Shown here in pieces: positions 3,258 to 19,173 of a stretch of 32,602 bases of DNA (positions are counted from its first letter, which is position 1; each line of letters begins with the position of its first letter). Origin of the DNA: an uncultured Oscillospiraceae bacterium (GTDB taxonomy: Bacteria > Bacillota > Clostridia > Oscillospirales > Oscillospiraceae); the NCBI GenBank assembly GCA_947626845.1, contig CANQTW010000029.1, positions 1 through 32,602 on the forward strand. The letters are read 5' to 3'. The position numbers and the translations under genes are program-made. The notes under the pieces were generated by a model, which saw only the letters and a list, made by a program, of their open reading frames with translations, was not told the DNA's origin and searched no databases.

Positions 3258-3270
3258 CGGGAGGTTTCGC

Positions 3271-3834: not shown

Positions 3835-3959
3835 TACGCAAGTACAGCAAGGACTTCAACGGATCATTGAGCGACAAGGATTGTATTCGACTGGTCGGCT
3901 GCGCCAGGGGGAGCTATTATAAGTATAAACGGGAGATTCGTGAAGAAAAGGATGAGTAA
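3813..3959 (+). other. Out-of-frame C-terminal DNA-binding tail of the serine recombinase
   Basis: Read from TCC 3813 in the -1 frame, this segment encodes 48 residues without a stop. The core KDFNGSLSDKDCIRLVGCAR followed by GSYYKYKREI resembles the helix-turn-helix that closes small serine recombinases. It has no start codon or RBS of its own, so it would be expressed only by -1 slippage at 3807-3813 or if the A-run really has seven bases. Confidence 0.7.
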
Positions 3960-4185
3960 AAAAATATTCTTCTCGGAACTTTAATGTAAAGAATCAAGTG
4001 ATGCACAAAAACTACACTTGTACAACAGGTGTTATTTTATGAATCTATCAAAAACAAAATATACTATCTATAAATATAAACATTATATATACTATAATTA
4101 ATTTATATATTATATATATATATATAAATAAAGATATATTTAATAGAACATATATATGTTATATATATGAAATGAGGTTATGTAA
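3960..4185. other. Very AT-rich intergenic block, possible origin or DNA-unwinding element
   Basis: No gene is seen in these 226 nt. From about 4055 to 4180 the DNA is nearly pure A/T, with long TATATA runs and the palindrome AACATATATATGTT. At 4014-4032 an imperfect dyad (ACACTTGT / ACAGGTGT, 3-nt spacer) precedes it. The block directly precedes a gene resembling replication initiators. It may be an origin with an easily melted segment, or simply an AT-rich promoter; the sequence alone does not decide. Confidence 0.4.
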
Positions 4186-5112
4186 TTGGATACAATTGTT
4201 CTTTGCAATTATTCTACATATCAACAGAATTCCTGTAAAGAGAAACCTGTTCGAGAAGATGATATGCCCCAAAATTGTGAAGGAATAAAATATTGGGCTA
4301 AAGAAATTGATCCTGCGAAAGCCCCATGTATCTGGATAAAAATAAACTGTCACATGTTTACGAAGCACATAAATGTGACATTTGAAGACATTGCTGAAAT
4401 CAAAAGTACAGTGGAAACCCAGCTTGAACAAATGGATATGACTCTGGACGATTTTCATATAAGCCGCATCGATTACGACTATAATTTCCGGCTGGATCCT
4501 CAAAGGCGAGAGGCGCTGGTTGAGACTATGAGAGGACTTCCCAGACGGATAGGATGTATGAATAAGTCGCCGCTTTACCACAGCATTTACTTTTTCTGTA
4601 CGTCGAGACATATCCAGCTTTACGACAAGGTCCACGAGAGGGTTGAGAAAAAGAAGAAAATCATGCCATGGGAAGCGGAGGTTTGCAGGCAGGAAATTCA
4701 ATGTTTTCCAGGACATATAGCTTATGTTCGCCAATATTATGACCTGCAGCCCACTTGGGAGAATTGGGTAAATATTGACAGGCAGGCTGATTACCTGTTG
4801 AGAGCCCGTCCAATTTTCCTCAGAGGCGATTTCTACCCGCTGGGCCACGCCGTTGAGCTTGTCCAGGAAAGCAAATTATCACCAACCATGAGGGAAAGAC
4901 TTTGCGATGACCTACGACGCATTTCGAGCGGCGGTCTTGCCGTGCTGAAAACAAAATACAGCTACAACACCTACAAAGAGCATTTGGTTTGCTTTGCTGA
5001 TTTAAATATCAGTCCCCTGACACTTCCCCAAAAATATGAATATCTCGGAAAAATAGAAAATCCTTTCTTTAGTGACCGGCTTTGTCCGGCCTTTTGTTTT
5101 TGTGACGAATAG
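4186..5112 (+). CDS. Possible replication-initiation (Rep_trans/phage-Rep-like) protein
   Basis: This 308-aa protein is tentatively assigned to the replication-initiation families of rolling-circle plasmids and small phages. Supporting segments are SRIDYDYNFRLD (about 98-109), like the RID motif of Rep_trans proteins, and IQLYDKVHER followed by a charged W-E-x-E-V-C-R-Q-E-I stretch, like the family's YDK...R-x-E signature. The tyrosine-rich HIAYVRQYYDL segment could supply a catalytic tyrosine. The start is TTG 4186, with GAGGTT 8 nt upstream; ATG 4264 is an alternative with a poor RBS. The AT-rich block just upstream suits an initiator. No HUH metal motif is evident, so the assignment is only moderate. 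Confidence 0.6.
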   Translation: MDTIVLCNYSTYQQNSCKEKPVREDDMPQNCEGIKYWAKEIDPAKAPCIWIKINCHMFTKHINVTFEDIAEIKSTVETQLEQMDMTLDDFHISRIDYDYNFRLDPQRREALVETMRGLPRRIGCMNKSPLYHSIYFFCTSRHIQLYDKVHERVEKKKKIMPWEAEVCRQEIQCFPGHIAYVRQYYDLQPTWENWVNIDRQADYLLRARPIFLRGDFYPLGHAVELVQESKLSPTMRERLCDDLRRISSGGLAVLKTKYSYNTYKEHLVCFADLNISPLTLPQKYEYLGKIENPFFSDRLCPAFCFCDE

Positions 5113-5170
5113 TCATGATCTTCCAGGCAGCCTCATACCATTCATTAAGCAGAACCGAGGTGGTCCCACA

Positions 5171-5356
5171 ATGAAAAGCCGGAAGTTGAATTATCGGATC
5201 CATGATCCAAATCCTCCCGAAGTCCTGGCAAATTATCTGATTGGGCTTTTCGTGGAGGTCAACACGCCAAAAATAGAAGCGGCCATGATTGCCGCTGAAA
5301 GTCAACCAAATAGAGATGACAATAATGATGAGAGCCATCCCGCCAAAGCGGGGTGA
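5171..5356 (+). CDS. Small hypothetical protein (61 aa) of the mobile module
   Basis: A 61-aa frame starts at ATG 5171 with a GAGGTGG RBS about 8 nt upstream and ends at TGA 5354-5356. The segment KLNYRIHDPNPPEVLANYL followed by a short amphipathic helix looks like a family of very small proteins I associate with Clostridia integrative elements, often near recombinase or replication genes; its function is unknown. The frame is open further upstream to about 5072, but only the ATG with the RBS is credible. The stop codon lies inside the stem of the following terminator. Confidence 0.55.
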   Translation: MKSRKLNYRIHDPNPPEVLANYLIGLFVEVNTPKIEAAMIAAESQPNRDDNNDESHPAKAG

Positions 5357-5367
5357 CTCTTTTTTTA
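5336..5367 (+). terminator. Intrinsic terminator
   Basis: An 8-bp GC-rich stem (5336-5343 / 5348-5355, loop CAAA, one G-T pair) is followed by CTCTTTTTTTAT. It ends the Rep-like/61-aa transcript and insulates the next gene, which has its own promoter. Confidence 0.8.
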
Positions 5368-5400
5368 TAATAGATAAATTGACATAGTGTTCAAATGGAC

Positions 5401-5429
5401 TTGTTTTTTTCTTATGTATGGGATATAAT
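5401..5429 (+). promoter_or_regulatory. Sigma-A-type promoter for the AAA_14 ATPase gene
   Basis: TTGTTT (5401-5406), a 17-nt spacer and a perfect TATAAT (5424-5429) lie 55 nt before the ATPase start codon and just after the preceding terminator. Confidence 0.55.
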
Positions 5430-5484
5430 GATATAAAAGTGTGAATATAATTGTGCAATATCCCTATAAAAATGTGAGGTGCCT

Positions 5485-6831
5485 ATGGAACGGCTTATTA
5501 TGAACGATCTCCTGAGATGGAAGAACTCCAAACACCGCAAGCCTCTGATTTTGAAGGGCGTGCGGCAGGTGGGAAAGACATGGGTGCTGCGGGAGTTCGG
5601 GAGGCGGTACTATGAGAATACCGCCTACTTCAACTTCGATGAGAACGAGGATTACCGGCAGTTCTTTGAGACGACCAAGGACGTGGACCGCATCCTGCAG
5701 AACCTGATGCTGGCAAGTGGGCAGAAGATATTGCCCGAAAAGACGCTCATCATCTTCGACGAGGTTCAAGACTGTCCCAACGTCATCAATTCCATGAAGT
5801 ATTTCTGCGAGAACGCGCCCCAATACCACATTGCCTGTGCCGGGTCGCTGCTGGGCATCGCTCTTGCCAAGCCCTCGTCCTTCCCGGTGGGCAAGGTCAA
5901 CTTCATGCAGTTGGACCCCATGACCTTCACGGAGTTCCTGATGGCCAACGGCGACAAAAATCTGGCGGAATATCAGGGGAGCATCGACAAAATCGAGCCC
6001 ATCCCGGATGCCTTTTTCAATCCGCTGATGGAAAAACTCAAGATGTACTACGTCACCGGCGGGATGCCGGAGCCGGTGCTGATGTGGACGGAGGAGCGGG
6101 ACGTTGTCGCCATGCAGGAGGCTCTTTCCGGCATCATCGGCGCCTACGAGCGGGACTTTGCCAAGCATCCCAGCATCAGCGAGTTTCCGAAGATTTCGAT
6201 GATTTGGAAGTCCATCCCCTCGCAACTTGCGCGGGAAAATAAGAAGTTTATCTATAAAGTGGTGAAAGAGGGGGCACGGGCCAGGGAGTACGAGGACGCC
6301 CTGCAGTGGCTTGTAGACGCCCGGCTCGTGCATAAGGTCTACCGCAGCTCCGCGCCGCGTCTGCCCATAGCGGCCTACGATGATTTGTCGGCGTTCAAGA
6401 TTTACCTTGTGGACGTGGGCCTGCTCCGCCGTCTGGCACAGCTGTCCCCCACGGCCTTTGGAGAGGGCAATCGGCTTTTCACGGAGTTCAAGGGGGCGCT
6501 GACAGAAAACTATGTACTCCAATCCCTGATCCCTCAATTTGAGGTCATGCCCCGCTACTGGAGCCAGGTGAACCCGCCCTACGAGGTGGACTTCCTCATC
6601 CAGCGCGAGAACGACATCTTCCCCGTGGAGGTCAAATCCGAGTCCAACACCACCAGCCGCAGCCTGCGAAAGTTCAAGGAGATATTCCCGGACGAAGTCA
6701 AGCTCCGCATCCGCTTCTCTCTGGACAACCTGAAGTTGGACGGGGACGTGCTGAATATCCCCCTCTTCCTGGCGGATGAGGCAGACAGATTGATTGGCAT
6801 GGCACTGGAGCTTCTTGGGCAGGATCATTGA
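5485..6831 (+). CDS. AAA_14 / DUF4143 ATP-binding protein
   Basis: The 448-aa protein is a typical AAA_14-DUF4143 ATPase. The Walker A motif GVRQVGKT is at residues 25-32 and Walker B with D92-E93 in LIIFDEVQ; a sensor-like CAGSLLGIAL segment follows. The C-terminal DUF4143 domain contains YLVDVGLLRRL and a PD-(D/E)XK-like motif (EVDFLIQ...VEVKSE). The family is widespread in gut Firmicutes and Bacteroidetes; its cellular role is undefined, though it often lies in variable or defence regions. ATG 5485 is preceded by GAGG at 5476-5479; GTG 5479 is too close to that site. It sits alone between a terminator/promoter pair and the next operon's promoter, so it is probably monocistronic. Length is normal and no defects are seen. 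Confidence 0.9.
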   Translation: MERLIMNDLLRWKNSKHRKPLILKGVRQVGKTWVLREFGRRYYENTAYFNFDENEDYRQFFETTKDVDRILQNLMLASGQKILPEKTLIIFDEVQDCPNVINSMKYFCENAPQYHIACAGSLLGIALAKPSSFPVGKVNFMQLDPMTFTEFLMANGDKNLAEYQGSIDKIEPIPDAFFNPLMEKLKMYYVTGGMPEPVLMWTEERDVVAMQEALSGIIGAYERDFAKHPSISEFPKISMIWKSIPSQLARENKKFIYKVVKEGARAREYEDALQWLVDARLVHKVYRSSAPRLPIAAYDDLSAFKIYLVDVGLLRRLAQLSPTAFGEGNRLFTEFKGALTENYVLQSLIPQFEVMPRYWSQVNPPYEVDFLIQRENDIFPVEVKSESNTTSRSLRKFKEIFPDEVKLRIRFSLDNLKLDGDVLNIPLFLADEADRLIGMALELLGQDH

Positions 6832-6856
6832 TGTTTTTGCAATAATGTGTTATAAT
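6828..6856 (+). promoter_or_regulatory. Promoter of the type III restriction-modification operon
   Basis: TTGATG (6828-6833), a 17-nt spacer and a perfect TATAAT (6851-6856) overlap the 3' end of the ATPase gene. They are correctly placed for the membrane protein-Mod-106 aa-Res operon. No other good promoter is seen before Mod. Confidence 0.6.
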
Positions 6857-6911
6857 TCTTCGAGAAGCAAGAAAACAGATGTTGATTGTGAGAGCAGGAG
6901 TATACAGAAGA

Positions 6912-7742
6912 ATGGAGAGAATTATAAACTGGATTTTGAAGCATAGGGTTTTGACGTTCCTGATCGTAGTTGGTATCTTTGCTTTGCCTCTTTTAGCTAT
7001 TCATTTTCTGTTCTTTTTTGATGCTAAATATGATTGGCTTGCTGCAAGCTGGGACTCGGGGGACGTTCTTGGCTATGTGGCTGGGTTTGAGGCATTCTTT
7101 GGTACTGTTTTTCTTGGCCTTGCTGCATTTCGGCAGAACCAACAGATTCACAACCAACACATTGACAGTCTGGAGCCTAACCTGAGTATGCGTCTCATTG
7201 AGGACCAGTACTGCATATACTTGTTAGTTGAAAATACAGGAGAAAGCCCAGCAAAGCAAATCAGAATAGATGTTGAGGAAATAAACAATAACGGAAACGA
7301 GAACTTATCGCTTGATAATCTTTTTAAAACTGATTTTGAACTGTATCCTCACGAAATTGTGCAAGGTCGTATCGCAATGAGTGGGAGAAATATTGTTACA
7401 CGTATTTTCCCTAAAATAACTGTACATGTCTCTTATGTACGTGCCGATATCGATCGCAAGCGGGAATACACACGTACAGTAGTATATGACGGAGGATATT
7501 CCAGAAAAGTAATTGCAGATGTAAATATGGACAATCACACATTGGAATCCGACGTTGACTGTATAGCGAGAGCTTCTGTCCGAGTAGCAAATTATCTTGA
7601 TGGACACTCCGTAGCTAAATTTGATCAATTAGATATTTTATCAGGACGATCTCTGCAAAACGATTTAGTTTCTGCTATTGTTAAGAAAAGAAAAAGTCAG
7701 ATTGTCAGCCGAGAAGACACCATTAAGAAGCGCAAGCGGTAA
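6912..7742 (+). CDS. Two-helix membrane protein leading the type III R-M operon (unknown)
   Basis: This 276-aa protein has two predicted membrane helices near the N-terminus (about residues 12-36 and 53-73) and a soluble C-terminal region of about 200 residues rich in beta-strand-like segments. The end is strongly basic (KKRKR). I do not recognise a named domain. I prefer ATG 6912 because AGGAG lies at 6896-6900; ATG 6879, 11 codons upstream, is also open but has a weak RBS. The Mod gene begins 22 nt after its stop and the operon promoter lies directly upstream. It is thus transcribed with the restriction system and may be a membrane accessory or a separate effector (inference). Confidence 0.75.
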   Translation: MERIINWILKHRVLTFLIVVGIFALPLLAIHFLFFFDAKYDWLAASWDSGDVLGYVAGFEAFFGTVFLGLAAFRQNQQIHNQHIDSLEPNLSMRLIEDQYCIYLLVENTGESPAKQIRIDVEEINNNGNENLSLDNLFKTDFELYPHEIVQGRIAMSGRNIVTRIFPKITVHVSYVRADIDRKREYTRTVVYDGGYSRKVIADVNMDNHTLESDVDCIARASVRVANYLDGHSVAKFDQLDILSGRSLQNDLVSAIVKKRKSQIVSREDTIKKRKR

Positions 7743-7764
7743 AGGAAAATGGGGGAAAGAAAAC

Positions 7765-9600
7765 ATGATAGAAAAGTTAGACGGCCTCACCATGGATATA
7801 GAATCCGAGAACAAAGCAAGGCTATGCGCTGTATTCCCTGAATGCTTCACAGAGGGACGGCTTGATATTGACAAGCTGCTTTCCATGTGTGGAGAGTACA
7901 TCACCGATGACTTTGAAAAGTATGAATTCAAGTGGAAAGGCAAGAGCCAGTGCCTTCGTATGGCCCAAAAACGCAGCACAGCAACTCTTCGTCCGTGCCC
8001 GGAGGAGAGCGTCAACTTTGACACAACGCAGAACCTCTATATCGAGGGAGACAACCTTGAGGTGTTGAAACTCCTGCAAAAGTCCTATTATCGCAAGGTC
8101 AAGATGATTTACATAGATCCCCCTTATAACACAGGAAATGATTTTGTATACGAGGATGACTTTGCCGATCCGCTTGCGCGGTACAAGGAAGTGACCCAGC
8201 AGACTACAAAAAGTAATCCCGAAACCATGGGACGGTATCACACGAATTGGCTGAATATGATGTATCCCCGTTTGAGGCTGGCAGCTAATTTGTTGCGGGA
8301 TGATGGGGTTATATTCATTTCAATTGATGATAATGAAATAACAAACCTGAAAAAAATATGTGATGAAGTATTTGGCGAAGAGAATTTTGTGGGACTATTC
8401 TGCAGGAAAACAAAAAGCGGTGGAGGAAGTGCATCCGGGTCGTGCGCTGTAGAACATGATTATGTCCTTTGCTTTGCTAAAGCGCTTGGCGAAATGAGGC
8501 CACTTCTTGAGAAATTTGGAAGTAGTTATCTAGAAAGATATAAAGAATGTGATGATATAGGCCCTTTCTTTTGGGACACGATGGAACGTTCTTCAACGAA
8601 AACAAGGCCCTATATTATTACTGCTCCTGATGGAACACAGTTATCTGGAAAGTGGTTTAGAAGCGAGGAGACGTTCAAAAAAGATTTACAAACCGGTGAA
8701 GTCAGATTCCTAAAAAAGCCTGATGGTTGGAGTGTACAGTTTAAACAGCGGTTGGCTGATGGTAAGAAGTTAAGAACAATCCTTGAAGAAAGTGACCTTA
8801 CCGATAAAAAGTACAGATCATTGAGCGAAGAACTTGAAATAATTGTTGGTTGTTCTCTTGAACATCCGCCCAAACCGATTTCTTTAATGGAAACATTAGT
8901 ATATTCAGGCTCAACGAGGGATTCTGAGGATATTGTTCTCGACTTTTTCTCCGGATCAGCTACCACCGCTCATGCCGTTATGCAGCTAAACTTTGAGGAT
9001 GGAGGAAATCGTCGCTTTATCATGGTACAGCTTCCGGAGCTTTGCAACGAGAAGAGCGAGGCATTTAAAGCGGGATATAAGAACATATGTGAAATCGGCA
9101 AAGAGCGTATCCGCCGTGCAGGGAAACAAATCCTCGACGCTGATGACGGACAGACGACACTTGATGGGGACAAGCCGGCTGTAGATGTTGGCTTTAAGGT
9201 GTTCAAGCTCGACAGCTCCAATTTGAAGGTCTGGGACGACACGCCGATTCCTGACGGTGATGTTGAGGCCCTTATGGGAAGGCTTGCGGACCATATTGAC
9301 GGACTGAAGCACGACCGAAGCGAGATCGATTTTGTTTATGAAATCCTTCTCAAGATGGGCTACCCTCTCACAGCGGATATCACTGCGTATGATGCAGACG
9401 GGATAATCGTTTATTCTGTAGACGAAAACTCCATGCTCATCTGCCTCCACCCCGGCGTTACGGCAGAATTGATAGAGAGGCTGGCTGAGTTTGCCCCCCA
9501 GAAAATTGTAGTCACAGAGAATTGCTTTGCCAATAACTCGGATATGTCAAATGCGCATTATCTGTTGGAAAACAGGAATATTGAGCTAAAAATCATATGA
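7765..9600 (+). CDS. mod: Type III restriction-modification DNA methyltransferase subunit (Mod)
   Basis: The 611-aa product is a beta-class N6-adenine/N4-cytosine methyltransferase of a type III system. Mod recognises the asymmetric target, methylates one strand and is needed by Res for cleavage. Motif IV is DPPYNTG (DPPY at 118-121), followed by the FVYEDDF segment typical of Mod. Motif I is DFFSGSATTAHA (393-404); the order IV before I defines the beta class. The variable target-recognition domain lies between (about 180-380). ATG 7765 has a GGGGGAAAG RBS; the frame is open upstream but overlaps the preceding gene. Length and motifs are complete. The middle third (8.3-8.95 kb) is more AT-rich than the flanks, as expected for an exchanged recognition domain. 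Confidence 0.95.
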   Translation: MIEKLDGLTMDIESENKARLCAVFPECFTEGRLDIDKLLSMCGEYITDDFEKYEFKWKGKSQCLRMAQKRSTATLRPCPEESVNFDTTQNLYIEGDNLEVLKLLQKSYYRKVKMIYIDPPYNTGNDFVYEDDFADPLARYKEVTQQTTKSNPETMGRYHTNWLNMMYPRLRLAANLLRDDGVIFISIDDNEITNLKKICDEVFGEENFVGLFCRKTKSGGGSASGSCAVEHDYVLCFAKALGEMRPLLEKFGSSYLERYKECDDIGPFFWDTMERSSTKTRPYIITAPDGTQLSGKWFRSEETFKKDLQTGEVRFLKKPDGWSVQFKQRLADGKKLRTILEESDLTDKKYRSLSEELEIIVGCSLEHPPKPISLMETLVYSGSTRDSEDIVLDFFSGSATTAHAVMQLNFEDGGNRRFIMVQLPELCNEKSEAFKAGYKNICEIGKERIRRAGKQILDADDGQTTLDGDKPAVDVGFKVFKLDSSNLKVWDDTPIPDGDVEALMGRLADHIDGLKHDRSEIDFVYEILLKMGYPLTADITAYDADGIIVYSVDENSMLICLHPGVTAELIERLAEFAPQKIVVTENCFANNSDMSNAHYLLENRNIELKII

Positions 9601-9620
9601 CTTGATAAGGAGCACACAGA

Positions 9621-9941
9621 TTGAAACCAAGTGATTTTATGGATGTGGTTGATAAGGTTTGCGAGGTACACAATGCCTATCTTGACAACTTACGGCAGCA
9701 AATAACGGACGAAATCAATTGGGTTTATCAGAACGAAAACGAGCCAATCGAATTACGAAGATATGCTTTTAAGATATATGACCGTAATTTGGTGCCATTT
9801 CTTACTGACGAACAGGTACATTCACTTATTGAAATTCGCGTTAACGAGTTATACGATCATCTTTGCGGAATAAATAACGGAAAGACTAATACATTGCCAA
9901 TCAAGGCAATAGTGCAGGAGCTTAAACTATTTGGCCGGTAA
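9621..9941 (+). CDS. Uncharacterised 106-aa protein between mod and res
   Basis: A 106-aa, mainly helical protein starts at TTG 9621, preceded by AAGGAG (9607-9612), 20 nt after mod. It is rich in charged residues and tyrosines (QQITDEINWVYQNENEP, then RRYAFKIYDRNL), with no catalytic motif. I do not recognise a family. Its place inside the operon, 26 nt before res, suggests it modulates or assembles the Mod-Res complex, protects the host during establishment, or is a passenger. Canonical type III systems such as EcoP1I and EcoP15I have only mod and res. Confidence 0.65.
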   Translation: MKPSDFMDVVDKVCEVHNAYLDNLRQQITDEINWVYQNENEPIELRRYAFKIYDRNLVPFLTDEQVHSLIEIRVNELYDHLCGINNGKTNTLPIKAIVQELKLFGR

Positions 9942-9967
9942 TCAGGCAGACATTGGGGATGATGTAG

Positions 9968-12900
9968 TTGAAACTTAAATTCAAACAGCAGGATTTCCAA
10001 ACCGATGCTGTCAACGCCGTCTGTGGGCTTTTTGAGGGGCAGAAGCGCCAATCCTCTACTTTTAGCATGGAGCTTGGCAGTGGACAGACAAGCTTGGATC
10101 AGGAACTTGGAATCTCAAATGGGCTGTACATAACCGATGAACAGATGATTGCCAATATGCAAAATGTTCAACGGAAAAACAGTCTGCCGTTGACCGCTGA
10201 CCTGTGTGGCCGTCAGTTCTCTATCGAGATGGAGACGGGCACCGGCAAGACGTATGTTTATACGAAAACGATTTACGAGTTGAACCGTTTATACGGATTC
10301 ACCAAGTTTATCATTGTTGTCCCCGGAGTTCCTATCCGCGAAGGTGTAAATAAATCCCTTGAGATGACATCGGATCATTTCGCGGCAATATACGATAATG
10401 TCCCCTCCAGATTCTTTATTTACAGCAGTGCAAAGCTGTCCGATGTTCGCGCGTTTGCCACAAGCGCCAATATTGAGATAATGATCATCAACATTGACGC
10501 ATTCCGTAAGGCTGAAAACGTTATTAACCAGGAGCATGACAAGCTGAGCGGTGATACAGCTATTGGCTATATCCGTGGAACAAACCCGATCGTCATTATT
10601 GATGAACCCCAGAGCGTGGACAACACCCAAAAGGCGAAAGATGCAATCGCTTCACTAAATCCTCTGTGCGTTTTGCGATATTCAGCGACCCACAGGGAGC
10701 GGGTCAATTTGCTCTATCGCCTTACCCCAGTAGACGCTTTTCAAATGGGACTCGTCAAGCAAATCTGTGTTTCCAGCAACCAGGTCGCTGTGGGGTTTAA
10801 TAAACCTTATATCAAACTGCTTAGCGTTTCCCATGAGAACGGCTTTAAGGCCCGCATCGAACTTGATGTTGAGAACAAGACTGGAAAAGTGAGCCGAAAG
10901 GTAAAAACCATAACGCCGGGAGCAGATTTATTCCGGCTGTCGGGAAATCGTGGATTATATAACGGCTATGTTCTTTCGGGTATTGACTGTACAAACGGCC
11001 ACGAGCAAATCGAATTTGCAAATACCGAGGTGGTTCATCTTCATGAAGCTATTGGCGACGTGGATGAAACTCTCATTAAACGTATCCAGATTCGGCGCAC
11101 GATAGAAGCTCATTTTGATAAAGAACTTCGATATACAGATAAGGGAATCAAAGTCCTCTCTCTGTTTTTCATTGACGAGGTCAGGAAATACCGTGGGTCA
11201 GAGGGAGAAAAAGGCATCTATGCACAGATATTTGAGGAAGAATACACCAGACTTCTAAGCCTGAAAAAGTACGAAAGGTTGAAGACGTTATTCCCCGCTG
11301 ATGTTACAGCTGTCCACAACGGCTATTTTTCTCAGGATAAAAAAGGACATTTCAAAGATACCAACGGTGACACTCAGGCCGACTACAACACATACAACAC
11401 CATTATGCGCGACAAAGAGTGGCTCCTTAGCTTTGACTGCCCGTTGCGCTTCATATTCTCACATTCGGCCTTGAAAGAGGGCTGGGATAACCCCAATGTG
11501 TTCCAAGTCTGTACTTTGATAGAGCAGAAGAGCGTCCTGACCGCCAGACAGAAGGTGGGACGCGGGCTTCGCCTGTGCGTTGATCAGAACGGAGACCGTG
11601 TTGATGACAGGGATATAAACATCCTGCACGTTATGGCAAACGAGAGCTTTGCTGAGTTTGCGGACAGTTTGCAACACGAAATTGAGGCTGAGACAGGCAT
11701 CAAGTTTGGTTCGATACAACTTGATTTGTTCAGTGGAATTACTTTTGAAGATACTCATATTGAGGATGTCCCTTTGACACAGGCGCAAACCGCAGCACTT
11801 CTTGACCATCTGGCCGGAGAAGGGTTTATTAAAACCGATGCCAAGTTGCCAGAGAGGACAGAGCTTCCAAAGGAATTGGAGCCCGCGAAGGTAAAAGCCG
11901 TAGAACATATAGCGCGTGAAGGCGGCATTTCTCAGTCTGTCATTGCTGGCCTCTCCGTAAGAAAAGAGATTATAGAGACGAAAACCATTTCCCACGACGG
12001 TGCCCAGAACCTGGTGAATCACTTCCGTGATAAAGGGTATATTTCGCAAAGCGGGGCTATTCGAGATAGTTTGAAGACCGCTTTACAGGATGGTACACTT
12101 GATTTGCCTCCTCAGTTAGAAAAAGCAAGAGCGCAAATCGTCTCCGTAATTAGGAAGAGCGCTGTTAAACTGCCAATACGCAATCATTCAAATGAGGTAC
12201 AGGTGCGCCTAAAGAAAGAGGTTGCAACTTCTCCGGAGTTTGAGGAGTTGTGGAGCAGAATCAGGCAAAAAACAGTGTACCGTGTAAGGATAGACGAAGA
12301 AAAGCTTGTCCTTCAGAGCGCGTATAAAATCCATGATATGGACCAAATCCCAAAGGCGCGAGTCATTACTCAGACAGCAGATATTCATATTGCACACCCA
12401 GGTGTTGAGTATGTCGAGCGAGGGATCAAAACAGCGGATATTACCGAAAGCTATACCTCACTCCCAAATGTTTTGCAAAATATTGGTTCACAGGTACAGG
12501 TAAAAAGATCTACTGTTTTTGATATTTTGACGCAGAGCGGTAGACTTGGAGATTTTCTGAATAACCCTCAGTTGTTCATTGAAAAAACCGTAGAGATAAT
12601 ACGAGAGGTTCGTCAGGAACTTGCCGTCTCTGGTGTCAGCTATAAGAAAGTCGATGGAGAAGAATATTATTGGCAGGAGATTTTTGATGCACAAGAGCTG
12701 ATTGCCTACCTCGATAAAAATGCTCTGCCGGTTGAAAACAGTATTTATGACCATATCATCTACGACAGTCCGACTGTTGAGCGTCCCTTTGCGGAAGCAC
12801 TTGACGAGGATCCGGATGTAAAGCTGTTTCTCAAGCTTCCGACTAAATTCAAGATAGACACGCCTATTGGAACCTACAATCCAGACTGGGCCGTCTATGT

Positions 12901-13090
12901 AGACAAGGACGGAGAAAAGAAGCTGTACTTTGTTATAGAAACAAAAGGAACCACCCAAACGAGTTTTCTCAGTGGTTCCGAGGAAGGAAAAATTTTCTGC
13001 GGCAAAAAGCACTTTGAGGCACTTGATAACGGTATCCGGTTTTTTGGGCCGGTGAATGACTGGATAGAGTTTAAAGTAAAAAGATTATAA
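9968..13090 (+). CDS. res: Type III restriction enzyme subunit (Res)
   Basis: The 1040-aa protein is the ATP-dependent translocase/nuclease subunit of a type III system. The N-terminal SF2 helicase domain has Walker A GTGKT at 91-95 and a DEPQ box at 212-215. Further helicase motifs are SATHRER and, in the second RecA domain, SALKEGWDNPNV and QKVGRGLRL. The C-terminal endonuclease has PD at 972-973 and E991-T-K993, the PD-(D/E)XK pattern of Res. The start is TTG 9968; GGGGATG upstream is an acceptable RBS and no ATG fits better before the conserved QDFQTDAV segment. All motifs and the full length are present, so with Mod the system should be active. The stop is followed by an intergenic region without an obvious hairpin. 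Confidence 0.95.
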   Translation: MKLKFKQQDFQTDAVNAVCGLFEGQKRQSSTFSMELGSGQTSLDQELGISNGLYITDEQMIANMQNVQRKNSLPLTADLCGRQFSIEMETGTGKTYVYTKTIYELNRLYGFTKFIIVVPGVPIREGVNKSLEMTSDHFAAIYDNVPSRFFIYSSAKLSDVRAFATSANIEIMIINIDAFRKAENVINQEHDKLSGDTAIGYIRGTNPIVIIDEPQSVDNTQKAKDAIASLNPLCVLRYSATHRERVNLLYRLTPVDAFQMGLVKQICVSSNQVAVGFNKPYIKLLSVSHENGFKARIELDVENKTGKVSRKVKTITPGADLFRLSGNRGLYNGYVLSGIDCTNGHEQIEFANTEVVHLHEAIGDVDETLIKRIQIRRTIEAHFDKELRYTDKGIKVLSLFFIDEVRKYRGSEGEKGIYAQIFEEEYTRLLSLKKYERLKTLFPADVTAVHNGYFSQDKKGHFKDTNGDTQADYNTYNTIMRDKEWLLSFDCPLRFIFSHSALKEGWDNPNVFQVCTLIEQKSVLTARQKVGRGLRLCVDQNGDRVDDRDINILHVMANESFAEFADSLQHEIEAETGIKFGSIQLDLFSGITFEDTHIEDVPLTQAQTAALLDHLAGEGFIKTDAKLPERTELPKELEPAKVKAVEHIAREGGISQSVIAGLSVRKEIIETKTISHDGAQNLVNHFRDKGYISQSGAIRDSLKTALQDGTLDLPPQLEKARAQIVSVIRKSAVKLPIRNHSNEVQVRLKKEVATSPEFEELWSRIRQKTVYRVRIDEEKLVLQSAYKIHDMDQIPKARVITQTADIHIAHPGVEYVERGIKTADITESYTSLPNVLQNIGSQVQVKRSTVFDILTQSGRLGDFLNNPQLFIEKTVEIIREVRQELAVSGVSYKKVDGEEYYWQEIFDAQELIAYLDKNALPVENSIYDHIIYDSPTVERPFAEALDEDPDVKLFLKLPTKFKIDTPIGTYNPDWAVYVDKDGEKKLYFVIETKGTTQTSFLSGSEEGKIFCGKKHFEALDNGIRFFGPVNDWIEFKVKRL

Positions 13091-13183
13091 CTCAGAAATT
13101 GCCATTCATTCGAAGAAGATCAGGCTATATAACTATTCGAAGTCAATATTAATAAGATACGATCTTTAAAAAATATGAATATG

Positions 13184-13199
13184 AACTCAATTCTGAGTT
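13184..13199. promoter_or_regulatory. Small dyad upstream of the helicase/DUF2290 operon
   Basis: AACTCA (13184-13189) and TGAGTT (13194-13199) form a perfect 6-bp inverted repeat with a 4-nt spacer, 23 nt upstream of the -35 box of the next operon. It could be an operator; no regulator gene is linked. The remaining Res-helicase gap is AT-rich with no other feature. Confidence 0.25.
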
Positions 13200-13221
13200 G
13201 ACATGTTTTTTTCTAACGGCA

Positions 13222-13250
13222 TTGAGAACTATTATGAGTTTTGGTATACT
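13222..13250 (+). promoter_or_regulatory. Promoter of the helicase-DUF2290 operon
   Basis: TTGAGA (13222-13227), a 17-nt spacer and TATACT (13245-13250) lie about 70 nt before the helicase start. This gives the operon its own transcription unit, separate from the restriction system. Confidence 0.55.
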
Positions 13251-13318
13251 TAAAGAAAGATTGACAAACCTTACCGAAAGATGAGCAAATACTTATATAT
13301 GTGGAGGTAGTTAAACTG

Positions 13319-15445
13319 ATGGAACTAATGATTTTTGATTTTGACTACTATAACAAGGATCTTGCGGCACAAAGATTAGCAGAGTATTTAAAGCCAATTT
13401 GTGCTGAACTGGATGGGCTCTGGTTATATAGAGAGCCGGATTTTAGAACCGAAGGTAATGAGCTACCTACATTCACCATTATTGGCCCAGAAATTGGGAT
13501 ATACTTTATTAAAATATTTTCAGAAACACACGAAACGCTTTCTGCTGTAGCAGATCGGTTTTGGATCGTTAATGATGTAAAGGTAAAGAGCGGCATTATG
13601 AAATTTCGCAATTATGCCCATAAAATCAAGTCGAAACTCGAAGATCCAATGCTTGATTTGCAGGATGATATTCCCATCAATACATTATATTATTTTCCGT
13701 ATTTGGAACAATCTATGTTCAAAAGCGTTAAACTGAAACGCGAGGAAATCATATTTACCAGTGATAATTCATCTGAAATTACAATTCAAAAGCGATCGAA
13801 GATCGATGATTTAAGCTATGATATTTTAAAAAGTGTAATCCAAAATGCGAGCATAATAAATAAATCATCTAATTTATATGTAGATGAACCAGCAAAAAAC
13901 ATGCTTGAGGCCATTGAATTAAACAATAAGAAAATTGCGCAATTTGATTATGAACAAATGGCTGCAAGTCTTACTATAACTGAAAAACCTGAGCGTATAA
14001 GAGGACTTGCAGGAAGTGGAAAAACGGTGTTGCTTGCTATGAAAGCAGCCAGATTGCATATGCGTTTTCCAAAGAAGAAAATCGCATTTGTATTTTATAC
14101 AAAAAGCCTATATAATCAAGCAACTGGTTTGATAAGAAAATATTATAATCAGATTGCGGATGATGAACCGAATTGGGATTACTTAAAGGTATTACATTCC
14201 TGGGGAGGCACAACAACTGGTGAGGGATTTTACTCCTACGTATGCAAAGAACATGGCATAATTCCTAAAACGTTACGGCAAGGAGATTTGGCAACACATT
14301 GCAGGGAGTTGTTGGCGCTTGATAACTTGCATGGTATTTTTGATTGTGTTTTAATTGACGAAGCGCAAGATTTCCCTCTTGATTTTTTCTTGCTTGTTGA
14401 GAAAATAACTAATTCTCCAAAGAAAATAGTTATTGCTTATGACGAGTTACAGACTACAAATGATATTCATATTCCAGAGTTTGAGCGGCTTTTTGGCGAG
14501 ACAAAAGGAGAGCCAAACATACGTCTTGAACCACAGCATGATTATATTTTAAAAAAATCTTATCGTAATACATTAGAGGTACTTGTTACTGCGTTCTCTT
14601 TTGGATTTGGTTTTTATAATAACATTACACAAATTATTCGGGACAAAACAACTTGGGATGCCCTTGGATTTGAATGCAATTCTCCTATGTTGCCTGGAGA
14701 AGAAGTGGTTATTCACAGGCCAGCGGGAAATAGTCCTAACTCCATCACGCAATTTTACCCCTCTCAAGAGCCGGTATCTTACAACACATATACTTCTCAG
14801 GAACAGCAAACAGATGAAATAGCATCAAAAATAAAAGAGTTAATTACTGTTCAAAATGTTCGACCGACAGATATTTTAGTTATTGATATTTGTATGAATA
14901 AAAATAAAGTACTCAATGAGCTTCAATATAAATTATACAATCTGGGGATAAGTTCTCATATTCCTGGAATAGTTTCTGATGCTCGAGACTTTTTTGTGGA
15001 TAAGAACGTTACACTTACATCTCCGAGAAACGCAAAAGGAAATGAAGTTCCTGTTGTTTTTGTGGTAGGTTGTGAAGATATCTATGCTAAAATCAGCGCA
15101 AGTCAGCAGAGACAGGCCCGAAATTTCATGTTTATATCAATAACACGATCAAAGGGATGGGTCCATTTGTCTGCCGTTGGGCGAATTAAAGGCGTGTTTA
15201 CCAATGAGATGAAACAGATACAAAAAAACATGCCCAATATGATATTTACCTTTCCTTCAGAAGCAAAACTACATGAAATCGCCAAAATCGATTATCTGAC
15301 AAATAATCCTAAAGCTAAAAATCTTGACCAAAATATGGAGAGCTTAAAAAGAGAAATTGCCTCTGGAAATGAGGAAATCGTTAAGCAGCTTTTTGATCTG
15401 GATCCTGACCTAAAAGCCTCATTAATAAAAATACTTTCGGAGTGA
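13319..15445 (+). CDS. UvrD-like SF1 helicase of a two-gene antiphage system (helicase + DUF2290)
   Basis: The 708-aa protein is a superfamily 1 helicase related to UvrD/Rep. The N-terminal 200 residues are a non-helicase region. They are followed by Walker A GLAGSGKT (229-236), Walker B LIDEAQD (D347-E348) with AYDELQTTN just after, and C-terminal motifs including ITLTSPRNAKGNEVPVVFV-like and FISITRSKGW. ATG 13319 is the start, with GGAGGT 11 nt upstream; GTG 13301 overlaps that site. Its last codons overlap the region of the DUF2290 start, so the two are co-translated. A helicase adjacent to DUF2290 is, to my knowledge, the combination catalogued in DefenseFinder as Rst_HelicaseDUF2290, an anti-phage system of unknown mechanism. 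The lower GC than the core genome fits horizontal acquisition. Confidence 0.85.
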   Translation: MELMIFDFDYYNKDLAAQRLAEYLKPICAELDGLWLYREPDFRTEGNELPTFTIIGPEIGIYFIKIFSETHETLSAVADRFWIVNDVKVKSGIMKFRNYAHKIKSKLEDPMLDLQDDIPINTLYYFPYLEQSMFKSVKLKREEIIFTSDNSSEITIQKRSKIDDLSYDILKSVIQNASIINKSSNLYVDEPAKNMLEAIELNNKKIAQFDYEQMAASLTITEKPERIRGLAGSGKTVLLAMKAARLHMRFPKKKIAFVFYTKSLYNQATGLIRKYYNQIADDEPNWDYLKVLHSWGGTTTGEGFYSYVCKEHGIIPKTLRQGDLATHCRELLALDNLHGIFDCVLIDEAQDFPLDFFLLVEKITNSPKKIVIAYDELQTTNDIHIPEFERLFGETKGEPNIRLEPQHDYILKKSYRNTLEVLVTAFSFGFGFYNNITQIIRDKTTWDALGFECNSPMLPGEEVVIHRPAGNSPNSITQFYPSQEPVSYNTYTSQEQQTDEIASKIKELITVQNVRPTDILVIDICMNKNKVLNELQYKLYNLGISSHIPGIVSDARDFFVDKNVTLTSPRNAKGNEVPVVFVVGCEDIYAKISASQQRQARNFMFISITRSKGWVHLSAVGRIKGVFTNEMKQIQKNMPNMIFTFPSEAKLHEIAKIDYLTNNPKAKNLDQNMESLKREIASGNEEIVKQLFDLDPDLKASLIKILSE

Positions 15446-15450
15446 TTTCC

Positions 15451-16077
15451 GTGAACGCTAGAGAAATAGTTCAAAATGATATTGTTTCATGTATTCATAA
15501 GGCCTTGAAGTGTAAAATACTTATTAATCCAAAAATTTCTGGTGGTTTTTTTGACGACAAAAGCAGAATAACAAGTAAATACACCCGTTTTTCTGATGAA
15601 GAAGATTATTTAGAAAAATATTACGAAAAATATGAGGGAGGCGAATACCTTGCTGCTTTTCCAGATGGGGCATTCTTTCAAATAAATTATGAATTCAATA
15701 TGCCCACAAAATACAGGTCCTATCTTATAAAAGCGAATCTTTGCTACCTTCCGCCTGTATCTGAAGATGGAATAAAGAATGAATACATTCGTTTTGATTA
15801 TAATAATTCATCAGATAATTCCTTCTTTCATGCGTTTGCCCACATTCATATTGGTTTCCAAAATGATTTGAGAATTCCCGCCAGTGAGATTCCACTGTTT
15901 TCTGAGTTCTTTGAAATGATACTGTATTTTTTCTATCCGAATGATTATAGAACATTCTTCAATAATGGCAAAAGAATCAATAGTACTGTAGACAGTCAAC
16001 CGGGTAGACTTACAAAAAGCAAAGTACTTATTAAAGAACTTGAAAAATGCTTTTATTTGAAGATTGCATCTGTTTAA
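15451..16077 (+). CDS. DUF2290 domain protein, partner of the helicase
   Basis: This 208-aa protein matches what I know of the DUF2290 family: a GAFFQINYEF segment followed by YLIKANLCYLPP, then the signature AHIHIGFQNDLRIP, then a phenylalanine/tyrosine-rich FSEFFEMILYFFYP helix. The family is uncharacterised; the invariant H-x-H-x-G and R-I-P positions look like an active or binding site but this is unproven. GTG 15451 is the preferred start because GGAG (15439-15442) is 8 nt upstream; GTG 15442 overlaps the helicase stop as GTGA. Either start means tight translational coupling, typical of subunits made in fixed ratio. A hairpin at 16141 probably ends the operon. Confidence 0.8.
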   Translation: MNAREIVQNDIVSCIHKALKCKILINPKISGGFFDDKSRITSKYTRFSDEEDYLEKYYEKYEGGEYLAAFPDGAFFQINYEFNMPTKYRSYLIKANLCYLPPVSEDGIKNEYIRFDYNNSSDNSFFHAFAHIHIGFQNDLRIPASEIPLFSEFFEMILYFFYPNDYRTFFNNGKRINSTVDSQPGRLTKSKVLIKELEKCFYLKIASV

Positions 16078-16140
16078 GCGGCAGATGGATTTTATTGGTA
16101 GCAAGAAAGGGCCTGTGAAAAAAGTCCCGCATCATAAAAG

Positions 16141-16174
16141 AAGAGAGTTGTCAGCACTGGCTGGCAACTCTCTT
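16141..16174 (+). terminator. Hairpin terminator of the helicase-DUF2290 operon
   Basis: A 14-bp stem (16141-16154 / 16161-16174, one G-U pair, 6-nt loop) lies 63 nt after the DUF2290 stop. It is A-rich upstream and only weakly T-rich downstream. Confidence 0.6.
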
Positions 16175-16179
16175 CCGTT

Positions 16180-16434
16180 TGCGGCATATGAACCCCCGGC
16201 TATGCCGGGGGGCAAAATAGGCTTTAGCTAAAAGCATCGAGCGAAGCGAGCCGCTATAAAGCCAGACTACGAATACCGACACGTTGCAAACAAGCGGATA
16301 TACCCGTTTACGGGTCGTAGGGCAAGTGATGCAAGTGACGGATATTCGGTGCGTCTTGAGACGCTTGCCGGTAAAAGGCCCTTATAGGGCCTAATCAAGC
16401 CTCCGGCTTAGCCGGAGGTTGTGACTGCGGCATA
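16180..16434. mobile_element. Palindrome-rich element, possible PATE/IS200-IS605-derived or structured RNA
   Basis: There is no gene here. Two 9-bp direct repeats TGCGGCATA (16180-16188, 16426-16434) bracket a 237-bp segment. Each end carries an 8-bp GC hairpin with a 3-nt loop (16193-16211 loop TAT; 16400-16418 loop TTA). Internal helices include 16220-16226/16257-16263, 16268-16273/16315-16320 enclosing 16302-16306/16311-16315, 16351-16355/16360-16364, and 16376-16381/16387-16392. End hairpins of this kind are typical of non-autonomous IS200/IS605 relatives. The dense internal pairing equally suggests a folded RNA. A 9-bp duplication is not expected for IS200/IS605, so the repeats argue for another mechanism or coincidence. 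Confidence 0.5.
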
Positions 16435-16450
16435 GTTTAATTGATGAAAA

Positions 16451-16473
16451 ACTATACTGACACACAGTATAGT
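16451..16473 (-). terminator. AT-rich terminator-like dyad
   Basis: A perfect 9-bp inverted repeat (16451-16459 / 16465-16473, 5-nt loop) is followed on the minus strand by TTTTTC. It could be a weak terminator for minus-strand transcription coming from spoIIID, or a protein-binding dyad at the island end. Confidence 0.4.
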
Positions 16474-16562
16474 CCGTTGCGGGGAAGATTCTTAGCGCTT
16501 TTAGAGGTAGGAATCAATAAGCTAAATCGGCAAAGATTTTATTACAAATGCATTACTAAACA

Positions 16563-16603
16563 AACAATCGGGCAGCTTCCATTCACGGAGCTGCCCGATT
16601 GTT
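16563..16603 (-). terminator. Intrinsic terminator behind truncated spoIIID
   Basis: A perfect 15-bp stem (16563-16577 / 16589-16603) with an 11-nt loop is followed on the minus strand by TTTGTTTA. It lies 28 nt after the stop of the truncated spoIIID frame. Confidence 0.7.
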
Positions 16604-16630
16604 ATCTTACGCACCATATAAACCGTTCTA

Positions 16631-16759
16631 TTAACCCACATCCATATGTACCGTGCTTTTGGATATGCCGAAGTGTTTTGCCGCGGCACGGACAGTGGCG
16701 CGGTTGTCTACGATGTATCTTGCCAGGCTCACGGCCCTCTCCTCGATGTTGGTCCTCAA
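16631..16759 (-). pseudogene. spoIIID: Truncated spoIIID (stage III sporulation regulator), 5' half only
   Basis: The minus strand from TTG 16759 encodes 42 residues matching the N-terminus of SpoIIID, the mother-cell DNA-binding regulator of sporulation. These are IEERAVSLARYIV, then NRATVRAAAKHFGISKSTVH, compare KKTVRVIAKEFGVSKSTVHKDL in B. subtilis as I recall it. Similarity continues through D40-V41, then a glycine and TAA follow. The family is normally about 80-95 aa, so the C-terminal half (TERLP... and the basic tail needed for DNA binding) is missing. GGGAG precedes the TTG and a sigma-E-like promoter lies upstream, so the 5' side is intact. The break coincides with the edge of the AT-rich island. 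The missing half is not elsewhere in the window. Confidence 0.8.
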
Positions 16760-16791
16760 TATCACCACTCCCGATTGATCGTGAACGGTAA

Positions 16792-16820
16792 AATCTATGT
16801 GGCCGCGGCGCGGAATATGT
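16792..16820 (-). promoter_or_regulatory. Sigma-E-type sporulation promoter of spoIIID
   Basis: On the minus strand, ACATATT (16820-16814), a 14-nt spacer and CATAGATT (16799-16792) closely fit the B. subtilis sigma-E consensus (ATATT, 13-14 nt, CATAnnnT). The position, about 33 nt upstream of the TTG start, suits spoIIID, a known sigma-E regulon member. Confidence 0.6.
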
Positions 16821-16977: not shown

Positions 16978-19173
16978 ATGAATGAAATAAGCAAACATGC
17001 TATCGAGGGGGGCGGCGGCGTGGCGGATCTTCTCGCGGGACTGAACGAGGCCCAGCTGGAGGCCGTGACAAGCACGGAGGGATTCGTGCGGGTCATCGCC
17101 GGAGCCGGCGCGGGCAAGACCAGGGCGCTGACGCACCGCTTTGCCTACCTTGTCACGGAGCTTGGCATCCTGCCGGGGAACATCCTGTGCGTGACCTTCA
17201 CCAACAAGGCCGCCGCGGAGATGCGCCAGCGCATCCACAATCTGACGGGGGATAACGACACCGGCCACATCTGCACTTTCCACAGCTTCTGCGTCACCGT
17301 CCTGCAGGAGGACATCAGCGCGGTACAGTACCCCAAGAGCTTCCTGGTGCTGGACAACTCCGACATCAACGAGATGCTGAGGATCATCTACGAGGAGCGT
17401 GGGCTGACGCTCCGGGATATGACCTTCGCCAACGCCAGGGACATGATCGAGATACAAAAGCTCTTCGAGCGGCCTGACTACTACCTTGACCTGATCGGGA
17501 TGTCCATCGACCAGCTTCGGGAAAAATACCTCTCCGCCGTGACGCCGAAGGATATCATCTTCTACGGCTATCTTTATCAGGAAAAAAAGTGTTTTGGCCT
17601 CGACTATAACGATCTTCTCAAATTCGCCCTCTATATCTTTGAAAAAAACGCGGACATTCGCCGTAAATGGCAGGAGCGCCTGGAGTACATCATGATCGAC
17701 GAGTTCCAGGACATCGACTCCATCCAGTACGAGCTGATTGAGGTCCTGGCGGGATACCACAGGAACCTGTTCGTCATCGGCGACCCGGATCAGGTCATTT
17801 ACACCTGGCGCGGCGCGGACGTGAAATATCTTCTGGAATTTGACAAGAAATTTCCCGGCACACAGACCGTCCTGATGACGGAGAATTACCGCTCCACACC
17901 GGAGATCCTGGCGGTGGCCAACTCCCTCATCGGCAAGAATTTCTTCCGCATGAAAAAGGACCTGACCCCTACCCTGCCCTCCGGGCCGCGGGTAGTATGC
18001 CACGAGGCAAAGACCTCGGAGGCCGAGGCCGCCTTCATCGCTGGGGAGATAGAACGCCTCCACGGCCTGGGTGTGACGTACCGGGATGTGACGGTCCTGT
18101 ACCGCTCCCATTTTGTGACACGCTCCCTGGAGGAGGTCTTCTTAAAAGAAAAGCTCCCCTATACCATTTACTCCGGCGTCCAGTTCTTTGACAGGCGCGA
18201 GATCAAGGACGCCCTCTCCTACCTGCGCATGGCCGCCTATCGGGACGATCTGGCGTTCACCCGCGTGGTCAATGTCCCCAAGCGCAACCTGGGCCAGCGG
18301 CGGATGGAGTATCTGCGCGCCTACGCCGTGGGACACGGCTGTTCCCTCTATGAGGCCCTTTGCAAATGCGTGGACGACGAGATCATGAGCGGCACAAAGG
18401 CCCGTCAGTTTATCTCCCTTATTGAGACCTACGGAGCCAATTACGCTGGCCGCCCCGTCTCTGAGGTGCTCTCCGCCATCCTGAACGACTCCGGCTATGA
18501 GCGGATGCTGCGCACCGAGGGGGCCCAGGAACGACTGGACAATCTGGCGGAGCTGAAGCAGTCGGTGTACGACTTTGAGGTGAGCTGCGGCGAGGAGTGT
18601 ACCCTGGAGCATTACCTTGCCCATGTGGCGCTGTTCACCAATCAGGATGCCGGGGACGCCGGCGACAAGGTAAAGCTGATGACCGTCCACGCCGCCAAAG
18701 GGCTGGAATTTCCCTATGTATTCCTCTGCTCCATGAACGAGGGCGTATTCCCCTCTAAAAAGACCAACACCAGGCCCAAAATGGAGGAGGAACGGCGTCT
18801 TGCCTTTGTGGCTGTGACGCGGGCGGAGAAGGCGCTCTATCTCACCGGCGCCCAGGGCCGCAATCTGGACGGTTCGCCCCGCTACCCCTCCCGCTTCGTG
18901 CTGGACATCGACCCCGCGCTTCTAAATTTCACCGAGCCGCTGCGGGAGGGGCTGATACGCGAGGCCAGGGCGTATATCGAGGCCAGCGACGCGCGCCTCT
19001 CCTCCGGAGAGGATCGCGGCGCGTTCTCGGTGGGAGACAAGGTGCTCCACACGGTCTTTGGGCCGGGAGAGATCCTTGGCCTGGACCAGGAGAAGGCCGC
19101 CTATATTATCAAATTTGACGGAATCGGCACCCCCAGAGCCATCGCTTTTCGGGCAAAACTGGAAAAGCTGTAA
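16978..19173 (+). CDS. pcrA: ATP-dependent DNA helicase UvrD/PcrA
   Basis: The 731-aa product is a housekeeping SF1 3'-5' DNA helicase used in repair and fork maintenance. Motifs are Walker A AGAGAGKT (41-48), FTNKAAAEMRQRI (Ia), IDEFQDID (241 onward), VIGDPDQVIYTWRGAD (III), LMTENYRST, LMTVHAAKGLEF (V) and FVAVTRAEKALYL (VI). The C-terminal end (GDKVLHTVFGPGEILGLDQ) is the Tudor-like RNA-polymerase-interaction domain of PcrA/UvrD. Motif III has P where many homologues have D (GDPDQ, not GDDDQ), within family range. ATG 16978 has a GGGGTGG sequence close upstream. High GC and codon use mark it as core chromosome, in contrast to the UvrD-like defence helicase at 13.3 kb. It is transcribed divergently from the spoIIID remnant. 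Confidence 0.93.
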   Translation: MNEISKHAIEGGGGVADLLAGLNEAQLEAVTSTEGFVRVIAGAGAGKTRALTHRFAYLVTELGILPGNILCVTFTNKAAAEMRQRIHNLTGDNDTGHICTFHSFCVTVLQEDISAVQYPKSFLVLDNSDINEMLRIIYEERGLTLRDMTFANARDMIEIQKLFERPDYYLDLIGMSIDQLREKYLSAVTPKDIIFYGYLYQEKKCFGLDYNDLLKFALYIFEKNADIRRKWQERLEYIMIDEFQDIDSIQYELIEVLAGYHRNLFVIGDPDQVIYTWRGADVKYLLEFDKKFPGTQTVLMTENYRSTPEILAVANSLIGKNFFRMKKDLTPTLPSGPRVVCHEAKTSEAEAAFIAGEIERLHGLGVTYRDVTVLYRSHFVTRSLEEVFLKEKLPYTIYSGVQFFDRREIKDALSYLRMAAYRDDLAFTRVVNVPKRNLGQRRMEYLRAYAVGHGCSLYEALCKCVDDEIMSGTKARQFISLIETYGANYAGRPVSEVLSAILNDSGYERMLRTEGAQERLDNLAELKQSVYDFEVSCGEECTLEHYLAHVALFTNQDAGDAGDKVKLMTVHAAKGLEFPYVFLCSMNEGVFPSKKTNTRPKMEEERRLAFVAVTRAEKALYLTGAQGRNLDGSPRYPSRFVLDIDPALLNFTEPLREGLIREARAYIEASDARLSSGEDRGAFSVGDKVLHTVFGPGEILGLDQEKAAYIIKFDGIGTPRAIAFRAKLEKL

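Follow-up and report, generated by a model that had tools for sequence, protein, structure and literature searches.

Intervening DNA elements are known to split the genes sigK, spsM, gerE, spoVFB, spoVR, kamA and yabG, as described in published reports (PMC5595907, PMC10747680, PMC6957869, PMC5025042). The skin element in sigK of B. subtilis and C. difficile resembles the element described here in that it interrupts a mother-cell regulator and depends on a large serine recombinase and a small directionality factor, for which we have a candidate; however, the target gene is another one, and excision of skin needs SpoIIID in both species, whereas here spoIIID itself is split (PMC5025042). In B. 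cereus, the gin element interrupts gerE, likewise a small mother-cell DNA-binding regulator; it carries a restriction system, requires no phage genes and has a recombinase and the small factor GirX, but it acts later, on genes controlled by sigma-K, and contains three recombinases (PMC5595907). SPbeta in spsM, whose excision rebuilds the gene (PMC4191935), and phi3T in kamA share with our element a recombination unit of integrase and factor, which is described as interchangeable; SPbeta differs in being a working phage, and neither spsM nor kamA is a regulator gene (PMC6957869). Vfbin in spoVFB, the element in spoVR and yin in yabG are comparable as recombinase-bearing elements in sporulation genes; however, yin is reported from one strain, whereas one recombinase family splits spoIIID in many genera (PMC10747680, PMC5025042). 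No spoIIID-splitting element was found in the literature searched, and supplementary tables of recombinase targets (e.g., PMC10083194) may already hold spoIIID; as far as this search shows, the target gene, its place in the cascade, the recombinase family, the small protein and the breadth of occurrence are new.

The DNA analysed here, called the window, is a stretch of 32,602 nucleotides from an uncultured Oscillospiraceae bacterium (contig CANQTW010000029.1 of assembly GCA_947626845.1; contig C29 of genome G000 in the following, where G, C and L numbers denote genomes, contigs and loci). We propose that an element encoding a serine recombinase splits spoIIID, that it has a small partner protein controlled by sigma-E, and that its excision in the mother cell rejoins the gene, a reading to which we assign a probability of about 0.8. 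In the mother-cell programme, SpoIIID directs the middle phase. The spoIIID elements share the sequence features of the skin kind of element, and skin-like control and excision are predicted for them.

The spoIIID gene in the window is split at the edge of a defence island

A previous reading of the window, made from the sequence alone, had placed a truncated spoIIID at 16441-16820 at the edge of a defence island and suggested a skin-like arrangement. The truncated gene is real and the coordinates are sound; the gene reads on the minus strand from TTG at 16759 to ...FGISKSTVHMDVG, with the stop at 16633-16631, and matches the SpoIIID family PF12116 above the cut-off (C29:16634-16750, minus strand, profile positions 3-41 of 82, E 7.6e-15; Table 1). 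The break point is located within the codons of the recognition helix. The sigma-E-type promoter that had been noted upstream of the gene was found as well and agrees with the sigma-E consensus at 13 of 15 positions. The described fall in GC content at the break is also present, the values being about 0.57 on the side of the helicase and 0.35-0.40 on that of the element. Neither the Rfam nor the tRNA scan of the window returned a match.

Table 1. Features of the window discussed in the text
Feature	Position	Strand	Remarks
Element, left-hand part	1..16644		reaches contig end
DUF932 protein and YqaJ-type recombinase	144..2063	plus	cargo
Resolvase-domain protein	3271..3834	plus	cargo
Small-protein sigma-E-like promoter	5113..5141	plus	TCATGAT-N14-CATACCAT, 12/15 positions
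61-residue small protein, candidate recombination directionality factor	5171..5356	plus	sole copy found in genome
AAA_14/DUF4143 ATPase, PADLOC PDC-S01	5479..6831	plus	cargo; PDC-S01 = candidate
Type III restriction-modification pair	7678..13090 (7678-9600, 9968-13090)	plus	cargo
Helicase and DUF2290 protein	13301..16077	plus	cargo; both with PADLOC models
Terminator-type hairpin	16563..16603	minus	sequence inspection
Stranded recombinase C-terminal tail	16602..16649	minus	TYGCGLIERFIWCVR and stop; joined to recombinase in phage contigs
Element-side attachment arm ending AGAACGGTT	16621..16644	minus	mirror of ACCGTTCTAATT on C6
spoIIID 5′ half	16631..16759	minus	42 codons, TTG start; last residues element-derived
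Recombination core TACATA	16645..16650	minus	common to C6:12084-12089
spoIIID sigma-E-like promoter	16792..16820	minus	ACATATT 16820-16814, N14, CATAGATT 16799-16792
UvrD helicase, host flank	16978..19173	plus	adjoins intact spoIIID in relatives

The 3′ half follows a large serine recombinase on a second contig

In the window genome (2.58 Mb, 68 contigs), PF12116 matched exactly two pieces, the one in the window and C6:12080-12217 (profile positions 35-80), and this search found no intact spoIIID in an assembly that is 90.9% complete, so that about 9% may be missing. A second, intact copy, which had been named as a finding that would speak against the skin-like arrangement, was ruled out for this assembly, as only these two complementary pieces matched. 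The C-terminal half and a large integrase had been predicted for the other end of the element, and both are present on contig C6: the 3′ half lies directly 3′ of a 511-residue recombinase (C6:10555-12090), whose Resolvase, Recombinase and zinc-ribbon domains mark it as a large serine recombinase and whose reading frame terminates inside the spoIIID 3′ half. Its nearest full-length solved relative is YokA of SPbeta, which we take to be SprA. A ParE-type toxin gene is located directly 5′ of the recombinase gene (L003:10123-10428).

Both joints contain the common sequence TACATA with mirrored arms. The window-side joint reads GGTACATA followed by TGGATGTGGGTTAATAGAACGGTT, and the joint on C6 consists of ACCGTTCTAATTGCAGATAACCA, TACATA and AGGATCTT. 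The window and C6 flanks align head to tail with the empty site, the intact spoIIID of the same-genus loci L020, L027 and L028, and overlap there by 5 bases, ACATA. Among 21 same-genus loci, which extend about 1.5 kb each way around spoIIID, the UvrD helicase adjoins the intact gene in 13, the ATPase found on C6 does so in 12 and both do in seven. Because the two halves are on separate contigs in G000, we infer the span of the element; window positions 1-16644 would join C6:1-12089 through unread DNA.

Recurrence of the split gene in relatives

Among the 60 genomes nearest to the window, its own included, 51 contain a SpoIIID match, and spoIIID is split in nine and intact in 42 of these. Both halves were found in G000, G010, G022, G032, G044 and G049, the 5′ half only in G016 and G053, and the 3′ half only in G052. 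The halves are 6.7 kb apart in the single-contig genome G044, and 12.6 kb and 19.5 kb apart on one contig in G032 and G049, respectively. A recombinase scoring above 1000 bits is present in five of the split genomes, which are the sources of the model, whereas the best score among the 42 intact genomes is 557 bits; in G010 and G022, the recombinase is interrupted by a contig end. The sequence-only reading had called for a comparison with relatives that lack the island. Those of the same genus hold the intact gene between the same flanks, whereas G053 loosely fits the opposite case of a truncated gene without an element: its 5′ half lies 2.4 kb from a contig end (L045, G053 C27:1-15000), and neither a recombinase of the window-element family nor the small protein described below nor a matching attachment arm was found in G053. 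Taken together, the skin-like reading of the split spoIIID is largely supported.

A scan of GTDB contigs with five of the recombinases returned 318 relatives, and among the best 80 of these 318 a spoIIID 3′ half is located at most 250 bases 3′ of the recombinase in 75. Two further contigs end 3 and about 80 bases past the recombinase (L048 and L126, respectively), L060 and L081 carry the same recombinase at sites other than spoIIID with both attachment arms recognisable, and in L053 the recombinase is followed neither by a spoIIID 3′ half nor by other-site arms. In 13 named loci, both halves are present with the recombinase between them; the SpoIIID profile behind the counts in named loci comprises 30 rows. 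Records of carriers include Blautia, Schaedlerella, Extibacter, Pseudoflavonifractor, Flavonifractor and Angelakisella, and cultured strains are among them, such as Schaedlerella arabinosiphila DSM 106076 (L064) and Extibacter muris DSM 28560 (L091). In a recombinase tree that leaves 37 of its 84 inner branches open, the two family labels, Lachnospiraceae and Oscillospiraceae, require 5-6 changes as compared with 16-19 in shuffles; the recombinase thus seems to be mostly kept within families, with some transfers.

The INPHARED record MT838016.1 (L167), labelled Bacteriophage sp., was considered as a free form of the element and rejected: its recombinase (57% identical) is followed by a spoIIID 3′ half, which makes the record a chromosomal fragment. 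The best plasmid match is a 32% relative. In L166 (G081 C1:584000-600000), an intact spoIIID is followed by two extra pieces of the 3′ part within 4 kb, which are perhaps scars of earlier insertions.

A small protein as candidate directionality factor

The small protein of the window belongs to a family with a median length of about 59 residues and the motif KLNYRFHNPNPxxxTADYILKILIEANxxKVExAI. It was found in seven of the nine split genomes (G000, G010, G016, G032, G044, G049 and G052) and in none of the 42 intact genomes of the same set of 60 (Fisher 3e-7); the model contains rows from five of the seven positive genomes, and when the G044 row was used as the sole query, it matched G000, G032 and G049 but gave no match in two intact genomes. 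All 16 complete elements with a window-type recombinase encode the small protein, 13 of them not being seeds and three being seed sources. Since its sole copy in G000 lies in the window, it ties the window contig to the recombinase on C6. In 71 other loci, all 72 matches are on the recombinase strand, 30 of them within 600 bases, whereas the protein is encoded opposite to the spoIIID strand in the window (5171-5356), in G010 (C9:41539-41664) and in G016 (C23:5279-5404). Neither a Pfam family nor a solved relative was found for the small protein, and the named ones among its database relatives are hypothetical proteins among the matches listed (120 of 412). A structure model predicts one helix (residues 16-44, mean pLDDT 78). 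Judged by its co-occurrence with the recombinase, the small protein is likely an excision or directionality factor.

The sigma-E consensus consists of KMATATT and CATACAHT at a spacing of 13-15. With this consensus and a threshold of at least 11 of 15 positions with CATA fixed, sigma-E-like sites precede the small protein in 50 of 67 loci (6.1% in shuffled sequences), the intact spoIIID in 25 of 30 genes of relatives (6.1%) and the split 5′ halves in 17 of 20 cases (5.7%), but the recombinase in only 6 of 81 (9.3%); the promoter sequences counted are related to each other and not independent. The recombinase of C. difficile skin is constitutive and the factor is controlled, and the promoter pattern found here matches this (PMC5025042, PMC5595907). 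In 35 of 65 small-protein promoters, GGACAA is located past the -10 region, compared with 2.4% of shuffles and 3 of 85 stretches before the recombinase. The small-protein promoter of the window contains no GGACAA and lacks the block common to most relatives, its consensus count being not lower. The sequence GGACAA(G) is presumably a SpoIIID site. In B. subtilis, many sigma-E genes are repressed by SpoIIID (PMC517825), and this repression, together with the GGACAA box, leads to the idea of a feedback.

Cargo of the elements

Among the scanned proteins of the 16.6 kb of the window and the 12 kb of C6, which are a subset of the frames at the ends of the element, DUF932, YqaJ and defence families are present, and no phage structural families were found. 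An AAA_14/DUF4143 ATPase is encoded in each known part of the element (window 5479-6831, L003:4134-5465). Other elements carry other genes: an AraC-type regulator, a family 2 glycosidase and parts of a sugar ABC transporter in G032, polysaccharide genes in G049, BioY and an HD-domain protein in G044, and an AAA ATPase with RloB in L054, similar pairs being recognised by eye in L064 and L074. The smallest complete element (L110, 4.1 kb) contains an oxidoreductase-like gene, the small protein, one further short frame and the recombinase.

A second frame is divided at the element borders

In 65 of 75 loci, the recombinase frame stops at a TAA to which the core and spoIIID both contribute. At the far side of the element, the frame continues as TYGxNKIERxIWxVx and then stops. 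The core was located by a script in 20 of 21 far-side sites; the tail is exactly 15 residues long in 11 of them (TYGCGLIERFIWCVR in the window), 13-20 in seven others, five in L064 and one in L045 of G053, and the tail of L035, which was missed by the script, has 15 residues by eye. In four IMG/VR contigs (L127-L130) with two distinct recombinases (69-70% identical), a 15-residue tail is joined to the recombinase and no spoIIID is present there; the core in these contigs has mirrored arms similar to those flanking the core of the window. With recombinase and tail in one piece, the free site is represented by these contigs, and upon integration the recombinase would be stripped of its tail. Conservation of the tail may partly be due to the DNA arm itself.

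Other recombinase lineages split spoIIID at the same codons

A survey of the class, into which every genome with a SpoIIID match was taken with its best places only, gave split-like scores in 8 of 184 matching genomes besides G000 (G053, G100, G110, G112, G177, G204, G256 and G269); G166 was rejected as a split case and proved to have a weak but nearly full-length match. A distant recombinase (602-609 bits) interrupts spoIIID in two genomes of one genus, the single-contig G177 and G110; it adjoins the 5′ half on the opposite strand in G177, where the halves are 64.7 kb apart, and is located 2.4 kb before the 3′ half in G110. In G100 (20.6 kb) and G112 (11 kb), the 3′ half is preceded by a third type of recombinase (about 350 bits), and no small protein of the kind described above was found in the elements of these two genomes. 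The branches of the two distant types in a joint tree correspond to 2 and 5.5 changes per site, and the break in spoIIID falls in the same few codons for all three recombinase lineages.

In G032 (C2:82408-106383), G177 (C1:498635-505944) and G110 (C5:7354-15104), a sigK-like gene is interrupted as well, its pieces being about 23, 6.6 and 7 kb apart, respectively. As spoIIID is split in all three genomes, they perhaps possess two DNA switches in one mother-cell cascade.

Proposed mechanism and alternative explanations

According to the proposed mechanism, the recombinase would be produced constitutively, and the small protein would be its directionality factor, switched on by sigma-E. Recombinase and factor would then excise the element in the mother cell only, thereby leaving the spore with the split gene and allowing the element to be inherited, and the rejoined spoIIID, transcribed from its own sigma-E promoter, would yield SpoIIID. 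Since excision of skin needs SpoIIID (PMC5025042), a switch in spoIIID would operate one level further up the cascade and would have to work without its own product.

An extended version of this mechanism is attractive, but we regard it as tentative and somewhat more doubtful than probable. It combines a mirror-image split of two genes with a one-shot, self-ending SpoIIID feedback switch at a point found independently by several recombinase lineages. Integration would cost spoIIID its end and the recombinase its conserved 15-residue tail, and excision would restore both, so that the protein sequence of the recombinase would record whether the element is in or out. Furthermore, the promoter of the factor, started by sigma-E and bearing the SpoIIID-like box, would allow the rebuilt SpoIIID to shut off the very factor that rebuilt it. 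Searches for the attP pattern, in which one arm type was modelled so that other forms may escape, gave no match in IMG/VR and, with up to two mismatches, none in 391 genomes of the class; neither the excised circle nor the rejoined gene was seen in these.

Alternatively, spoIIID could be a mere landing site, in which case SpoIIID would be off, sporulation would be poor or absent and excision would be rare and unregulated. Near-identical recombinases occur in records of different families and the cargo differs, which points to recent movement; the elements in L060 and L081 are at other sites, phage genes are present in L127 and L130, and phage contigs with related recombinases bear endolysin, tail-fibre and polymerase genes. 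The state of the two halves, however, argues against a mere landing site. A stop-tolerant search of the 80 named loci yielded 75 C-terminal and 13 N-terminal halves, none of which contains a stop, and 26 of 27 half matches from whole-genome searches are stop-free, the exception being a weak 5′ piece with three stops at a contig start in G269, which may be a decayed half and as such would suit a landing site. The median dN/dS is 0.267 for the C-terminal halves (339 pairs, 11.8% of them above 1; intact genes 0.168) and 0.259 for the N-terminal halves (53 pairs; intact genes 0.221). Both halves of spoIIID are under purifying selection. Sporulation genes are also retained: of 14 split genomes, 13 encode SpoIVA, with no match in G016, and the sigma-K model matches all 14, above the cut-off in one only. 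In view of this constraint, and of the conserved sigma-E-like promoter before the candidate factor and none before the recombinase, a mere landing site is an unlikely explanation.

It is far less probable that the two halves act as separate polypeptides and excision is needless: the 5′ half retains a promoter and a stop and the 3′ half of G000 contains an in-frame TTG codon, but the break lies inside the recognition helix and the 3′ half is at the very end of the recombinase frame. An origin of the fragments in an old duplication, or in faulty binning or assembly, which two halves on two of 68 contigs in the window genome might suggest, is hardly credible given that the flanks agree with the intact gene in relatives and overlap there by 5 bases, and is excluded for the relatives by the single contigs of G044, G032 and G049 and the 13 named loci with the recombinase between the halves.

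Implications

In the cases described in the cited reports, the elements interrupt sigK, gerE or genes that encode spore structure or enzymes (PMC5595907, PMC10747680, PMC6957869, PMC5025042). A family of elements that splits spoIIID would shift the irreversible DNA rearrangement one tier up in the cascade, and it would concern many anaerobes, with records of Lachnospiraceae and Oscillospiraceae, and not just a few strains. Such elements could also account for an apparent lack or truncation of spoIIID when genomes of this kind are surveyed automatically. The recombination unit, which is accompanied by defence, sugar uptake or polysaccharide genes, may be a cargo platform that may persist because the spore line needs both halves of spoIIID. 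Since three recombinase lineages break the gene within the same few codons, these elements offer a direct test of why regulators of terminal differentiation repeatedly become landing sites.
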